Positions 731-44,113 of a DNA stretch of 64,000 nt are shown piece after piece. The notes below the pieces were generated by a model, which worked only from the letters and a program-made list of their open reading frames with translations, did not search any database and was not told the DNA's origin. The stretch covers positions 682,001 to 746,000 of the forward strand of contig JAPLCB010000004.1 of the NCBI GenBank assembly GCA_026392455.1, written 5' to 3'. How positions within the stretch are numbered: the first letter of the stretch is position 1; each line of letters starts with the position of its first letter. This stretch comes from Propionibacteriales bacterium. GTDB taxonomy: Bacteria; Actinomycetota; Actinomycetes; Propionibacteriales; Nocardioidaceae. Made by a program: the position numbers and the translations under genes.

Positions 731-2227
731 CTACTTCAGCGACACGTTCACGCTGTAGGTCGCCCCGTTGTCGAGGGTCACCTTGATCCGGTAGGTGCCG
801 GATGCCAGGCCCTTGGTCGACCAGTTGTACTGGTACACCCCGGCGCTGATCGCGAACACGGTCCCGGTCGACGGGGTCGTGGAAGGCAGGGTCTCCAGGT
901 CGTCCCCGCTGATGCTGGAGCTGACCTTCGTGGCCGAGAAGTACGCCACTGGGCTGGTGGTCGCGACTCCGTTGGCCTTGAGGGTGAACTTCACCGGGAC
1001 GGTCGAGTTGCCTTTGACGATCGAGGACCCGTCGGCGTTCAGCGGCTGCTGCAACCCGAACGCGTAGATGGTCGCCGGGGGCGGTGCAACCAACTTCTCC
1101 ACCCGATGATTGCCGAAATCGGCGATGTAGACGTTTCCGGTCCCGTCGACCGCGACCCCGGTCGGGTAACTCAGGTTGGAGGAGGTTGCGGGCCCTGCGG
1201 TGGGGGCACCAGCGGCGCCGGTGCCGGCGATCACCGAGAGCTGCCCGCCAGGGGTGACCTTCTCCACCCGATGGTTGGACGTGTCGGCTATGTAGACGTT
1301 CCCGGACCCATCGACCGCCACCCCGAACGGGGTTCTCAGGTTGGAGGAGGTGGCGGGCCCTGCGGTGGGGGCACCAGCGGCGCCGGTGCCGGCGATCACC
1401 GAGAGCTGCCCGCCAGGGGTGACCTTCTCCACTTGATTGTTTCTGCCGTCGGCGATGTAGACGTTCCCGGTCCCGTCGACCACGACCCCCGTCGGGTTGT
1501 CCAGGTTGGAGGAGGTTGCGGGCCCTGCGGTGGGGGCACCAGCGACGCCGGTTCCCGCGATCACCGAGAGCTGTCCGCCCGGAGTGACCTGCTCCACCCG
1601 ATGGTTCCCTTGATCGGCAATGTAGACGTTCCCGGACCCATCGACCGCGACCCCGGCCGGGCTGTTCAGGTTGGAGGAGGTCGCAGGCCCTGCGGTCGGG
1701 GCGCCCTGGCTGCTGGTGCCGGCGATCACCGAGAGCTGCCCGCCCGGAGTGACCTGCTCCACCCGATTGTTGCCGTAGTCGGCGATGTAGACGTTCCCGG
1801 ACCCATCAACCGCCACCCCGATCGGTAAGTCCAGGTTGGAGGAGGTCGCAGGCCCTTCGGTCGGGGCACCAGTATCGCCGGTGCCAGCGATCACCGAGAG
1901 CTGCCCGCCCGGAGTGACCTTCTCCACCCGATTGTTGACGGTGTCGGCGATGTAGACGTTCCCGGACCCATCAACCGCCACCCCGTACGGGTTGAACAGG
2001 TTGGAGGAGGTTGCGGGCCCTGCGGTGGGGGCACCAGCAGTGCCGGTGCCCGCAACAAACAACAGGGCGTAGTCGTCGGTCGCTGCGTTGGCCGCACCGC
2101 CCAGGCCCGTGACCACCACCGTGGGAATCACGGCAGCAAGAGCAAGCAACGCAATCCTGGTACTCCGGGTCCGCCTCTCCCGGCCCACAGCACGGCGTCT
2201 ACGGGTGGAACCTCGGTGATCGGACAT
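731..2227 (-). CDS. Secreted six-bladed NHL-repeat protein with C-terminal PxKF domain
   Basis: The protein has 498 residues from the ATG at 2227. I prefer this start over the track's longer ORF because GAGGAG lies 6 nt upstream and an Arg-rich signal peptide follows (residues 1-48, ending GGAANA). Residues of about 55-385 are six NHL-type repeats of exactly 55 residues, each with GVAVDGSGNVYIAD followed by NxRVEKVTPGGQ. Six repeats should close into one beta-propeller. The last 105 residues contain VKGNSTVPVKF, the PxKF-domain signature, an Ig-like fold seen in secreted actinobacterial proteins. A cell-surface or secreted binding role is likely, but no catalytic residues are evident and the ligand is unknown. 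It stands alone, with a hairpin behind it, inside the accessory region. Confidence 0.85.
   Translation of the reverse strand: MSDHRGSTRRRRAVGRERRTRSTRIALLALAAVIPTVVVTGLGGAANAATDDYALLFVAGTGTAGAPTAGPATSSNLFNPYGVAVDGSGNVYIADTVNNRVEKVTPGGQLSVIAGTGDTGAPTEGPATSSNLDLPIGVAVDGSGNVYIADYGNNRVEQVTPGGQLSVIAGTSSQGAPTAGPATSSNLNSPAGVAVDGSGNVYIADQGNHRVEQVTPGGQLSVIAGTGVAGAPTAGPATSSNLDNPTGVVVDGTGNVYIADGRNNQVEKVTPGGQLSVIAGTGAAGAPTAGPATSSNLRTPFGVAVDGSGNVYIADTSNHRVEKVTPGGQLSVIAGTGAAGAPTAGPATSSNLSYPTGVAVDGTGNVYIADFGNHRVEKLVAPPPATIYAFGLQQPLNADGSSIVKGNSTVPVKFTLKANGVATTSPVAYFSATKVSSSISGDDLETLPSTTPSTGTVFAISAGVYQYNWSTKGLASGTYRIKVTLDNGATYSVNVSLK
1095..2084 (-). repeat. Six in-frame 165-bp tandem repeats (NHL blades)
   Basis: The motif at 1095 recurs at 1260, 1425, 1590, 1755 and 1920, an exact 165-bp period. 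Long blocks, such as the segment encoding AGPATSSNL and the one encoding TPGGQLSVIAGTG, are almost unchanged at DNA level. That indicates recent duplication or gene conversion. Differences concentrate in the short segments between the conserved blocks. Confidence 0.9.
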
Positions 2228-25761: not shown

Positions 25762-26520
25762 ATGGCAACGCTGGAGATCAAGGACCTGCAGGTATCCGTC
25801 GACACCGAGGACGGTCCGAAAGAGATCCTCAAGGGCGTCAACCTGACCATCAAGGACGGCGAGACGCACGCCATCATGGGACCCAACGGCTCGGGCAAGT
25901 CCACGCTGGCCTACTCCATCGCCGGTCACCCGCGCTACAACGTCACCGGCGGTTCGGTCACCCTCGACGGCGTCGACGTGCTGGCGATGACCGTCGACGA
26001 GCGCGCCCGGGCCGGCCTGTTCCTGGCGATGCAGTACCCGGTCGAGGTCCCGGGCGTCTCGGTCTCGAACTTCCTGCGCACGGCGAAGACCGCGATCGAC
26101 GGCGAAGCCCCCAAGCTGCGCACCTGGGTCAAGGACGTCAACGCAGCGATGGACCGGGTCAAGATGGACACCGCCTTCGCGAGCCGCAACGTCAACGAGG
26201 GCTTCTCCGGCGGTGAGAAGAAGCGCCACGAGATCGTCCAGCTCGAGCTGCTGAACCCGAAGGTGGCCGTCCTCGACGAGACCGACTCCGGCCTCGACGT
26301 CGACGCGCTCAAGATCGTCTCCGAGGGCGTCAACCGCTTCAAGGAGTCCGGCGACAAGGGCGTCCTGCTGATCACCCACTACACCCGGATCCTGCGGTAC
26401 ATCAAGCCGGACTTCGTGCACGTGTTCGTCAACGGGAAGGTCGCCGACCAGGGCGGTCCGGAGCTGGCCGACGAGCTTGAGGCCAACGGCTACGACAAGT
26501 ACGTGGCGCTGGCGCGATAG
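25762..26520 (+). CDS. sufC: Fe-S cluster assembly ATPase SufC
   Basis: The protein has 252 residues. Walker A is MGPNGSGKSTLAYSIAGHP near residue 36, the signature FSGGEKKRHEIVQL near 150 and Walker B VAVLDETDSGLD near 172; DETDSGLD is the typical SufC form. SufC is the soluble ABC-type ATPase that drives conformational change in SufBC2D. It is preceded by GGAAGAG within the Rieske gene. The stop codon is followed 3 nt later by a copy of the dispersed hairpin repeat, which splits the SUF operon at this point. Confidence 0.96.
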   Translation: MATLEIKDLQVSVDTEDGPKEILKGVNLTIKDGETHAIMGPNGSGKSTLAYSIAGHPRYNVTGGSVTLDGVDVLAMTVDERARAGLFLAMQYPVEVPGVSVSNFLRTAKTAIDGEAPKLRTWVKDVNAAMDRVKMDTAFASRNVNEGFSGGEKKRHEIVQLELLNPKVAVLDETDSGLDVDALKIVSEGVNRFKESGDKGVLLITHYTRILRYIKPDFVHVFVNGKVADQGGPELADELEANGYDKYVALAR

Positions 26521-26522
26521 GC

Positions 26523-26600
26523 GGCACTGGGCTGCGTTGTCGTCACGTGGCGGCCGCTTCGCTCCAAGGCCGCCGGCGCTCCTCCGCCTTGCCCAGCACC
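26523..26600 (+). repeat. Dispersed hairpin repeat, copy A (short form)
   Basis: The outer arms GGCACTGGGC and GCCCAGCACC pair except for an internal CA/CA mismatch. The inner arms GGCGGCC and GGCCGCC pair perfectly around a 12-nt loop. Sequence outside the arms matches copies B (36771-36857) and C (43202-43289), for example CGTTGTCGTC and CTCCTCCGCCTTGC. It begins 3 nt after the sufC stop and lies inside the operon. Confidence 0.75.
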
Positions 26601-26639
26601 ACTTCTCGCACCACCTCCAACCGACGGAAAGGGAACACG

Positions 26640-27872
26640 ATGAACGGCCTCCTGCCTGACCTCGATGTCATTCGGAAGGACTTCCCGATCCTGGAACGGG
26701 TGCTCGACGGCGGTCACCGGCTGGTCTACCTGGACTCGGCGAACACGTCGCAGAAGCCGCAGGTCGTGATCGACGCGATGGTCGACCACCTCGAACGGCA
26801 CAACGCGAACATCTCCCGCGCCATGCACCAGCTCGGCGCCGAGTCGACCGAGGCGTTCGAAGCAGCGCGCGACACCGTGGCACGGTTCCTGAACGCGCCG
26901 TCGCGCGACGAGGTGATCTTCACCAAGAACGCCACCGAGGCTCTCAACCTGGTCGCCCGGACGTTCCCGCTCGGCCCTGGTGACCGGGTGGTCATCACCG
27001 AGATGGAGCACCACTCCAACATCGTGCCGTGGCAGCTCGCCACCGAACGATCCGGAGCGGAGCTGCGCTGGTTCGGGCTCACCGACGACGGCGAGCTCGA
27101 CCTGAGCAACATCGACGAGCTGCTGGTGCCGGGCACCAAGGTCGTGGCGCTGACCTGGGTCTCCAACATGCTCGGCACCATCAACCCGGTCGCCGAGATC
27201 GCCCGGCGCGCCCACGAGATCGGGGCGGTCGTGGTGCTGGACGCGTCGCAGGCGGCCCCGCAGCTCCCCGTCGACGTCCAGGCCGTGGATGCGGACTTCG
27301 TGGTGTTCACCGGTCACAAGGTGACCGGTCCGACCGGGATCGGCGTGCTCTGGGGCAAGGCCGAGCTCCTGAACGCACTGCCTCCGTTCCTCGGCGGCGG
27401 CGAGATGATCGCCACCGTCACCATGGAGAAGTCCACCTGGGCGCCGATCCCGTCCAAGTTCGAGGCCGGCACCCCGCCGATCACCGAGGCGATCGGTCTC
27501 GGGGCCGCGATCGAGTACATCTCGCACGTCGGGCTGGACGCCATCCACGCCCACGAGCAGGCCATCACCGGTTACCTGCTCGAGGGCCTCGCGACCGTCG
27601 GTGGCGTCCGGGTACTCGGACCGCTGGACGCCAGCAAGCGCGGGGGAGCCGTTGCCTTCGAGCTGGCCGGGGTGCACCCGCACGACATCGCCCAGCTGCT
27701 CGACAGCCGGGGGATCGCCGTCCGAGCCGGGCACCACTGCGCGAAGCCGGCGCACAAGCGGTTCGGTGTCCAGGCCTCGACGCGGGCGTCGTCGTACCTC
27801 TACACGACGCCGGCCGAGATCGACGCCCTGATCGACGGGCTCGAGTACACCAAGAACTACTTCAAGGTCTGA
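26640..27872 (+). CDS. sufS: Cysteine desulfurase SufS
   Basis: The protein has 410 residues from the ATG at 26640, preceded by GAAAGGGA; the track's extra 31 residues come from the repeat. The pyridoxal-phosphate lysine is in VFTGHKVTGPTGIGVLWG near residue 225. HHSNIVPWQL near 122 is the cofactor-binding histidine region, and RAGHHCAKP near 360 carries the sulfur-accepting cysteine. It removes sulfur from cysteine and passes it to SufU, encoded next. The 120-bp gap after sufC, filled by a repeat, is the only sizeable gap in the operon. Confidence 0.96.
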   Translation: MNGLLPDLDVIRKDFPILERVLDGGHRLVYLDSANTSQKPQVVIDAMVDHLERHNANISRAMHQLGAESTEAFEAARDTVARFLNAPSRDEVIFTKNATEALNLVARTFPLGPGDRVVITEMEHHSNIVPWQLATERSGAELRWFGLTDDGELDLSNIDELLVPGTKVVALTWVSNMLGTINPVAEIARRAHEIGAVVVLDASQAAPQLPVDVQAVDADFVVFTGHKVTGPTGIGVLWGKAELLNALPPFLGGGEMIATVTMEKSTWAPIPSKFEAGTPPITEAIGLGAAIEYISHVGLDAIHAHEQAITGYLLEGLATVGGVRVLGPLDASKRGGAVAFELAGVHPHDIAQLLDSRGIAVRAGHHCAKPAHKRFGVQASTRASSYLYTTPAEIDALIDGLEYTKNYFKV

Positions 27873-35154: not shown

Positions 35155-36753
35155 GTGATCACTGCAAACCGCCTCGAAGTCCGTGCCGGCGCCCGACTCC
35201 TGATGGAGGACGTGTCGTTCCGCATCGCCACTGGCGACCGCATCGGGCTGGTCGGCCGCAACGGTGCCGGCAAGACCACCTTGACCAAGATCCTCGCCGG
35301 CGAGGGCGCCCCGGCGTCCGGGACCGTGACGAACTCGGGAACGCTCGGCTACCTGCCGCAGGACCCCCGGACCGGGGACCCCGAGGTGCTGGCCCGGGAC
35401 CGGATCCTGTCCGCCCGCGGCTTGGACCAGGCCGTCGCCCGGCTGCGCGAGGCCGAGGAGCAGATGGCCTCGCCCGATCCCGAGGTCCACCGCAAGGGCA
35501 TGAAGCGCTACGAGAGCGCCGACGCTGCGTTCCACGCCGCCGGTGGCTACTCGGCCGAGGCCGAGGCGGCCCAGATCTCGTCGGGGCTCGGGATCGACGA
35601 ACGGCTGCTGGGCCAGCAGCTCAAGACCCTGTCCGGCGGGCAGCGCCGTCGGGTCGAGCTGGCCCGGATCATCTTCTCCGGAGCCGACATCCTGCTCCTC
35701 GACGAGCCGACGAACCACCTGGACGCCGACTCGATCGTGTGGCTGCGGCAGTTCCTGGCGAACTTCAGCGGTGGCCTCGTGGTGATCAGCCACGACGTCG
35801 AGCTCCTCGAAGCCGTCGTCAACAAGGTCCTGTACCTCGACGCGAACCGCGCCGAGGTCGACCTCTACAACATGACCTGGAAGAACTACCTCCAGCAGCG
35901 CGAGAACGACGAGCACCGCCGGAAGAAGGAACGCGCCGCTGCCGAGAAGACGGCCGAGACCCTGATGGACCAGGCGAACCGGATGCGGGCCAAGGCCAGC
36001 AAGGCGAAGGCCGCCCAGTCGATGATCAAGCGTGCCGAGAAGATGATGGACGGGCTGGCTGACGTCCGTGCTGCGGACAAGGTCGCCAAGATCAAGTTCC
36101 CCGAGCCCGCTGCGTGCGGCAAGACCCCGTTGATGGCGGAGGGCCTGTCGAAGTCCTACGGCTCGCTCGAGGTGTTCACCGACGTCGACCTCGCGATCGA
36201 CCGCGGGTCGCGGGTGGTGATCCTGGGCCTCAACGGCGCCGGCAAGACCACGATGCTGCGCATCCTCGCGGGCGTGGACTCCGGCGACACCGGCACGTTG
36301 CTCCCGGGCCACGGGCTGAAGATCGGCTACTACGCCCAGGAGCACGAGACCTTGGACGTCTCCCGCACGGTGCTGGAGAACATGGCCACCTCCGCACCCC
36401 AGCTGACCGACGCCGAGCGACGGACCGTCCTGGGCTCCTTCCTGTTCAGCGGGGACGACGCGACCAAGCTCGCCGGGGTCCTCTCCGGCGGCGAGAAGAC
36501 CCGGCTGGCGCTGGCCATCCTGGTGGTCTCGTCGGCGAACGTGCTGCTGCTCGACGAACCCACCAACAACCTCGACCCGGCCTCCCGCGCCGAGGTCCTG
36601 GCCGCGATCCGGTCGTACAAGGGTGCGATCGTGCTGGTCACCCACGACGAGGGCGCCGTCCAGGCCCTCGAGCCCGACCGGGTGCTGCTGCTGCCCGACG
36701 GCGACGAGGACCTGTGGAACGACGATTACCTGGACCTCATCAGCCTCGCCTGA
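35155..36753 (+). CDS. ABC-F family ATPase
   Basis: The protein has 532 residues from a GTG. It has two ABC domains in one chain and no membrane segment: Walker A GRNGAGKTTLTK near residue 34 and GLNGAGKTTMLR near 360, signatures LSGGQRRRVELA near 160 and LSGGEKTRLALA near 443. The linker of about residues 240-300 is highly charged (RRKKERAAAEKTAETL), the P-site tRNA interaction motif region of ABC-F factors. These proteins act on ribosomes as translation factors, and some protect against antibiotics; which role applies here cannot be read. TAGACT 9 nt before the GTG may be its -10 box. Confidence 0.92.
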   Translation: MITANRLEVRAGARLLMEDVSFRIATGDRIGLVGRNGAGKTTLTKILAGEGAPASGTVTNSGTLGYLPQDPRTGDPEVLARDRILSARGLDQAVARLREAEEQMASPDPEVHRKGMKRYESADAAFHAAGGYSAEAEAAQISSGLGIDERLLGQQLKTLSGGQRRRVELARIIFSGADILLLDEPTNHLDADSIVWLRQFLANFSGGLVVISHDVELLEAVVNKVLYLDANRAEVDLYNMTWKNYLQQRENDEHRRKKERAAAEKTAETLMDQANRMRAKASKAKAAQSMIKRAEKMMDGLADVRAADKVAKIKFPEPAACGKTPLMAEGLSKSYGSLEVFTDVDLAIDRGSRVVILGLNGAGKTTMLRILAGVDSGDTGTLLPGHGLKIGYYAQEHETLDVSRTVLENMATSAPQLTDAERRTVLGSFLFSGDDATKLAGVLSGGEKTRLALAILVVSSANVLLLDEPTNNLDPASRAEVLAAIRSYKGAIVLVTHDEGAVQALEPDRVLLLPDGDEDLWNDDYLDLISLA

Positions 36754-36875
36754 TCAGCCTCGCCATCCGCGGCACCTGGCGGCGTTCTCGTCGGTCGACG
36801 TCCGCTCCGCTGCGCTCCGCAGAAGGACGCCTTCCCTCCTCGGCCTTGCCAGTCACCACGACTGACGACGCTGAT
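36751..36875 (+). repeat. Dispersed hairpin repeat, copy B (full form with terminal inverted repeats)
   Basis: The unit begins at TGATCAGC, whose TGA is the stop codon of the ABC-F gene, and ends at GCTGATT. ATCAGC (36753-36758) and GCTGAT (36870-36875) are inverted. Inside lie outer arms GGCACCTGGC/GCCAGTCACC (36771 and 36848) and inner arms CGTCC/GGACG (36799 and 36825). It is strongly similar to copy C. Confidence 0.8.
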
Positions 36876-36903: not shown

Positions 36904-37695
36904 ATGCCTGAACTCCCTGATGCAGCCACTCTCACCCGGGCCCGGCTGGCCCTGGCCATCGACGGCCCCGTCGCCACGATCACGTTGAACGCGCCAGACA
37001 AGCGCAACTCGCAAGTACCGTCGCTGTGGCACACCCTGGACGCGATCGGGGCCGCCCTGCCCGAGGAGGTCCGGGTCGTCGTGCTCAAGGGAGCCGGGAC
37101 GTGCTTCTCGGCAGGCCTGGACCTCGGGCTGCTCAGCCCGGGAGGGGTCGAGGGGGAGGAGTTCCTGGACCTGGAGGCCTCCACCGACCAGCACATCATC
37201 GACACCATCGACGGGTACCAGCGCGGCTTCACCTGGCTGCACGACCCGCGCTTCGTGACGATCGCCCAGGTGCACGGGTACGCCATCGGCGCGGGCTTCC
37301 AGCTCGCGCTCGCGTGCGACCTGCGGGTGGTCGCCGACGACGCCTGGTTCTGCATGAAGGAGCCGGCGCTCGGTCTGGTCCCGGACCTGACGGGAACAAA
37401 GCCCCTGGTCGAGCTTGTTGGCTATGCGCGGGCGCTGGAGATCTGTGCGACGGCACGGCAGGTCTCCGCGGCTGAGGCAGCAGCGATCGGGCTGGCCACC
37501 GCCGTGGTCGGCGAGGCTGACCTCGATGCGGCCACCGGCGACCTGGTGGCTGCGCTGATCGAGGTCAACGCCGGCGCCGTACGGGAGACAAAGGCACTGC
37601 TCCAGTCCGCGCGGGTCGAGGACCTGGAGACCCAGCGGTTGCTCGAACGGACCGCCCAGGTGCGACGGTTCCGGGCGCTGGCCTCGGGTGGCTGA
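36904..37695 (+). CDS. Enoyl-CoA hydratase/isomerase family protein
   Basis: The protein has 263 residues. VATITLNAPDKRNSQVPSLW near residue 22 and VVLKGAGTCFSAGLDLGLL near 60 are the crotonase-fold signatures (first oxyanion-hole segment). IAQVHGYAIGAGFQLALACD near 122 gives the second, and FCMKEPALGLVPDLTGT near 150 the substrate-pocket region. It should act on acyl-CoA thioesters in fatty-acid breakdown or a side pathway. The exact reaction varies widely across this superfamily and cannot be assigned. It precedes an ABC exporter gene by 39 bp. Confidence 0.9.
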   Translation: MPELPDAATLTRARLALAIDGPVATITLNAPDKRNSQVPSLWHTLDAIGAALPEEVRVVVLKGAGTCFSAGLDLGLLSPGGVEGEEFLDLEASTDQHIIDTIDGYQRGFTWLHDPRFVTIAQVHGYAIGAGFQLALACDLRVVADDAWFCMKEPALGLVPDLTGTKPLVELVGYARALEICATARQVSAAEAAAIGLATAVVGEADLDAATGDLVAALIEVNAGAVRETKALLQSARVEDLETQRLLERTAQVRRFRALASGG

Positions 37696-43184: not shown

Positions 43185-43307
43185 TCAGCGCACTGATACG
43201 CAGCACCCTGCGGCGTTGTCGTCGGTCGACGTCCGCTCCGCTGGCGCTCCGCTGAAGGACGCCTTCCCTCCTCCGCCTTGCATGGCACTACATCTCAGCA
43301 CGCTGAT
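43182..43307 (+). repeat. Dispersed hairpin repeat, copy C (full form with terminal inverted repeats)
   Basis: It starts at TGATCAGC, which contains the dodecin stop codon, and ends at GCTGATT. The inverted ends are ATCAGC (43184-43189) and GCTGAT (43302-43307). Outer arms AGCACCCTGC/GCATGGCACT and inner arms CGTCC/GGACG occupy the same relative places as in copy B. A shared GGGAC follows the right end in both copies. Confidence 0.8.

Positions 43308-43381: not shown

Positions 43382-44112
<731 letters not shown>

Positions 44113-44113
<1 letters not shown>

Follow-up and report, generated by a model that had tools for sequence, protein, structure and literature searches.

MITEs usually keep only their ends, since the transposase needs only those, and a YTAR target duplication is the signature of the IS5 group. 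Other described repeats, such as ERIC, Correia/NEMIS, RUP and bcr1, are hairpin units of about 100-160 bp scattered between genes, and integron attC sites are imperfect palindromes in which the bottom strand gives the better fold and the outer and apical parts vary. Here we describe a hairpin repeat with three copies in the window (the whole stretch of 64,000 nucleotides that was analysed). Like IS5-family MITEs it is short, non-coding, dispersed in multiple copies and either present or absent at orthologous sites, and its full-length relatives carry terminal inverted repeats and a CTAG or TTAA duplication. Unlike those MITEs, it has a strand-specific structured core that is conserved across phyla while the terminal repeats differ between lineages, and its copies in the genus of the window lack clear ends. 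We consider it probable (about 0.7) that this hairpin repeat belongs to the non-autonomous, MITE-like elements and has a strand-specific folded core, with relatives moved by IS5-type transposases and with probably old or relic copies in this genus.

ERIC, Correia/NEMIS, RUP and bcr1 resemble the element in their hairpin form and intergenic scatter; their host ranges are narrower, however, and their target duplications differ. With the REP elements of RAYT transposases the repeat shares an imperfect hairpin with conserved mismatches, but no Y1 transposase was found in two tested carrier genomes of the genus and the relatives have terminal repeats and a target duplication. The likeness to attC sites lies in the imperfect palindrome with one better-folding strand and variable outer parts, whereas no integron box motifs stood out when the sequence was read, and a cassette arrangement was likewise not observed. 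Searches of the literature by sequence and keyword found nothing describing this hairpin family. It is a previously unlisted family of hitch-hiking insertion elements in Actinobacteria and Clostridia, absent from Rfam, with a conserved fold on the strand opposite to the one first examined.

Copies in the window and their insertion sites

A covariance model (R1) picked exactly three copies in the window, A, B and C, at 56.0, 50.0 and 62.3 bits, with 14.9 bits for the next-best match. The model was made mainly from sequences of other genomes, copy C being among its 40 input sequences, and its E-values are rough owing to a shortened calibration. The three-copy repeat reported in the initial annotation is thus not a product of chance, and all letters given for it were present. 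By itself, the loop motif GCTYCGCT occurs at chance level (nine matches in the window against 7.6 expected).

The folding strand of all three copies is the minus strand, and the neighbouring genes given here with coordinates are on the plus strand. Copy A (26517..26606, or more) is longer than the unit of 26523-26600 proposed at first. It lies between a sufC-like ABC ATPase gene (25762..26520; Pfam PF00005) and a sufS-like cysteine desulfurase gene (26640..27872; PF00266, 472.7 bits). Copy B (36765..36863) comes after an ABC-F type ATPase gene (35155..36753; PF00005 twice and PF12848), directly behind its stop codon, and is followed by an enoyl-CoA hydratase gene (36904..37695; PF00378). Copy C (43196..43295) is located 3' of a short gene, named dodecin-like by eye, and upstream of a short-chain dehydrogenase gene (43409..44113; PF13561). 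In copy A, the outer arm CTGGGC (26527-26532) pairs with GCCCAG (26591-26596) and the inner arm GGCGGCC (26549-26555) with GGCCGCC (26568-26574), the loop starting with GCTTCGCT at 26556. Copies B and C have shorter outer arms and the inner arms CGTCC/GGACG; that the arms differ between copies and still pair was confirmed in the sequence. Elsewhere in the window (1094-2053), a tandem repeat comprises five overlapping-register copies at 165-bp spacing with 83-86% identity to the reference copy.

At the sufC-sufS site, comparison of 22 genomes of the genus revealed the element in the own genome (G000) and in G007, a truncated remnant in G001 and no element in the other 19. At the empty sites the two genes often abut or overlap, and a few have other spacer sequence. 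Because most relatives are without it between sufC and sufS, we conclude that the element was inserted there. The ABC-F site carries the element in G000, G021 and G007, a degraded copy in G004 and a possible remnant in G015, and is empty in the other genomes examined. Insertion into pre-existing terminator hairpins was considered and rejected, as inspection by eye revealed no such palindrome at the empty sites. Two further details concern the adjoining coding ends. The final sufC codons of G000 (26506-26520) are unlike those of most relatives, and it looks as though the insertion had taken the place of the gene end with its stop codon. At the ABC-F site of loci L329 and L334, the coding end of the upstream gene has a genome-specific sequence, to which the arm 3' of the element is complementary.

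Distribution, ends and mobility of the family

The own genome contains about 10 copies of approximately 90-100 bp as delimited by the model, and its relatives in the genus 0-14. Copies were found in 13 other genomes of the genus and in none of the other genera of the same sample; within the genus they lie mostly just after stop codons, with gene contexts assigned by a simple ORF rule. Across the phylum the core is patchy, being present at 1-15 copies in 19 of 297 sampled Actinobacteria genomes, and each of five Clostridia-type genomes likewise has 1-15 copies. The same core occurs in Streptomyces, Nocardia, Gordonia, Leucobacter, Rathayibacter and Clostridia. Plasmid records of Streptomyces, 40 in all, carry the element as well, and the listed matches there overlie no annotated feature; in phages it had no match. 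When 119 loci were searched for a gene travelling with the element, neither a convincing recurrent ORF cluster nor a recurrent transposase-like ORF beside the copies was detected. In one locus (L143), the 3' half of the element is partly duplicated in tandem.

Outside the genus of the window, full units measure about 150-180 bp; many of them end in inverted repeats and are flanked by a YTAR target duplication (CTAG/TTAA). Streptomyces units possess near-perfect terminal repeats such as GGGCCTGTCGTTTGGATCA, at CTAG, and those of Leucobacter, Lachnospiraceae, Peptococcaceae and others have different end sequences, again flanked by CTAG or TTAA; some of these terminal repeats were read by eye. 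When a search admitted direct repeats of any 4 nt next to a terminal inverted repeat, 57 of 93 elements outside the genus had YTAR, and most non-YTAR repeats were GGCC, itself a palindrome within the ends. Inside the genus, none of 34 copies had a terminal repeat together with YTAR, and by eye CTAG was seen at both ends of three (L045, L055, L087). Their ends appear eroded or absent and, since none of the 34 passed this test, their mode of insertion is extrapolated from the relatives.

An IS5-type transposase locus in G331 (L285) has CTAG on both sides and the ends GGCATGTCTGATAATTCC, resembling a Kitasatospora element (L059). No autonomous element with the ends of the same-genome units was found in G331, G040 and G041. 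An autonomous element with Streptomyces or G331 ends was not found either, the unpaired end matches in G331 being further short or damaged units. Four units of about 60-95 bp (L193, L194, L201, L281) have terminal repeats without the core and look like internal hairpin deletions; L193, L194 and L281 keep intact ends, so mobility may not require the core. Nested in Streptomyces units (L188-L192, L196, L197) is another small hairpin repeat, CTCCCCCAAGCTCT...AGCAGGGGGGACCCCCA with variants.

Strand, fold and covariation

Under RNA parameters, the minus strands of copies A, B and C fold at -47.6, -50.1 and -46.5 kcal/mol (z -3.40, -3.39, -3.66), and none of 200 shuffles folded as well. The corresponding plus strands reached -38.8, -35.4 and -32.9 kcal/mol (z -1.42, -0.58, -0.75) and were no better than shuffles, so that the plus-strand fold described initially has to be moved to the opposite strand. 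With DNA energy parameters no significant fold was obtained on either strand of the three copies. The folding strand forms a long stem that contains G.U/G.T wobbles, is interrupted by one AA and one CAA bulge, and includes tandem G.A/A.G steps (two or three). The CA/CA feature near its base, originally taken for an internal mismatch, does recur between copies, but on the minus strand it is a G.U (G.T) wobble.

What appears on the plus strand as a pyrimidine/pyrimidine internal loop corresponds on the minus strand to GCG-[GA]-G-[GA]-G against C-[GA]-C-[GA]-CAA-CGC. In copy A, the 5' half of this core, which recurs in Actinobacteria and Clostridia, is GCAAGGCGGAGGAG (26579..26592, minus strand), and the 3' half, recognised from sequence and alignments, is GACGACAACGC (26534..26544, minus strand). 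The halves pair via G-C pairs and tandem G.A/A.G steps next to the CAA bulge, with a third step in many copies; this pairing was read from the sequences, and its invariant columns are incapable of covarying. A kink-turn was rejected by reasoning, because its standard polarity would put the bulge on the other side of the G.A steps. Where dnaA could be located (four genomes), the folding strand runs opposite to replication in 45 of 62 copies (p = 5e-4). The bias is seen in three of the four (against:along 13:2 in G331, 15:3 in G347, 10:3 in G019 and 7:9 in G346); the test was devised after the first genome and copies within a genome are related, which makes it a lead only.

The covariation proposed from three copies became overwhelming when more copies were aligned. 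For 40 diverse copies and a stated structure of 30 pairs, the score was 0.550, against 0.174 ± 0.013 for shuffled data and 0.08-0.15 when the partners were slid by 1-3 columns; 85.3% of the cells were paired and both sides had changed in 22 pairs. In a set of 74 non-redundant copies, 1232 cells were Watson-Crick pairs compared with 802 ± 18 for permuted arms. Most of the 40 aligned sequences were fetched by the exact core pattern, and therefore the invariance of the core is partly a sampling effect, which leaves the covarying arms and the inner stem unaffected. The core was also recovered by the covariance model, with some substitutions, and a relaxed count of core conservation was discarded as it let in false matches. 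At 26 outer arm positions of the 74 copies, read on the folding strand, we counted 263 G.T and 51 A.C combinations, and 71 G.T and two A.C at the first 14 arm positions within the genus of the window. That G.T is retained, A.C avoided and the tandem G.A core recurrent points to selection acting on the folded minus strand.

The original contrast between selection on shape and a simple duplicated sequence nevertheless proved too sharp. The wobble asymmetry and the kept G.A core speak for the first part, but the repeat is an inserted MITE-like element and template-switch correction can mimic covariation. Because some arms are complementary to host coding ends, arm covariation may stem in part from such correction of imperfect palindromes, and both processes may be acting. 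That it arises mainly by mutation, with template switching copying one arm onto the other and renewing the pairing irrespective of shape, seems to us a serious alternative with somewhat less than an even chance. At the ABC-F site the downstream arm fits the genome-specific synonymous spelling of the coding end (CATCTCG with CGAGATG in G004, GATCTCG with CGAGATC in G007), and many genus copies end in 4-7 locus-specific, inverted-complementary nucleotides; such locus-variable yet complementary ends are more easily explained by template-switch copying within an imperfect palindrome. Template switching would, however, give perfect palindromes, and yet the G.A core and the G.T wobbles persist, as does an A.G mismatch that recurs at arm position 5, while the avoidance of A.C, both overall and in the genus arms, also argues against it.

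Alternatives that ascribe a different role to the hairpin differ widely in how well they fit. Expression of the minus strand as a structured RNA under selection, for binding of a conserved protein or regulation of the neighbouring genes, would agree with the significant folding of all three minus strands under RNA but not DNA parameters, with the tolerance of G.U and avoidance of A.C and with the recurrence of the core across two phyla. We regard it as rather unlikely, given that a scan for one promoter type revealed no promoter-like site near copy A, that the minus strand of many genus copies runs antisense to the gene next to it and that the element has no Rfam match (above the gathering score, in the window and 18 loci only tRNAs were found, and a relaxed threshold yielded chance matches only). 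It is considerably less probable still that the hairpin serves the upstream genes as an intrinsic terminator or stabilises their 3' ends. The copies do often lie close behind stop codons, but the stem of copy A is not followed by a T-run, the sense strand folds no better than shuffles, and copies A and B stand between co-directional genes where most relatives lack the element. Least credible is mobilisation as a REP element by a RAYT (Y1 HUH) transposase via a single-stranded hairpin: the expected imperfect hairpin, conserved strand-specific mismatches and dispersal between genes are all seen here, but Y1_Tnp (PF01797) was unmatched in the own genome and in G019, which has 13 copies, and the 4-bp target duplication and terminal inverted repeats of the full relatives do not fit.

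Proposed mechanism and significance

According to the MITE-like interpretation, the full-length relatives most likely owed their movement to IS5-type DDE transposases acting in trans. Their terminal repeats would turn over between lineages while the apical core stays, and the shorter copies in the genus of the window, mostly located after stop codons, would probably be old or relic members. The core would be kept since the folded strand, more likely as RNA than as single-stranded DNA, is recognised by something. More tentatively, and with the odds somewhat against it, the core could be a structured nucleic-acid module of a kind that has not been described before, made of RNA or of one DNA strand and containing stacked tandem G.A steps. 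A conserved factor of the cell would read it, and a succession of MITEs whose ends changed would have carried it through Actinobacteria and Clostridia.

In this family the ends change among lineages while the apical, strand-specific fold persists in two phyla, which raises the question of what reads the fold. It also offers a natural data set with which selection on a fold could be told apart from the correction of palindromes by template switching.
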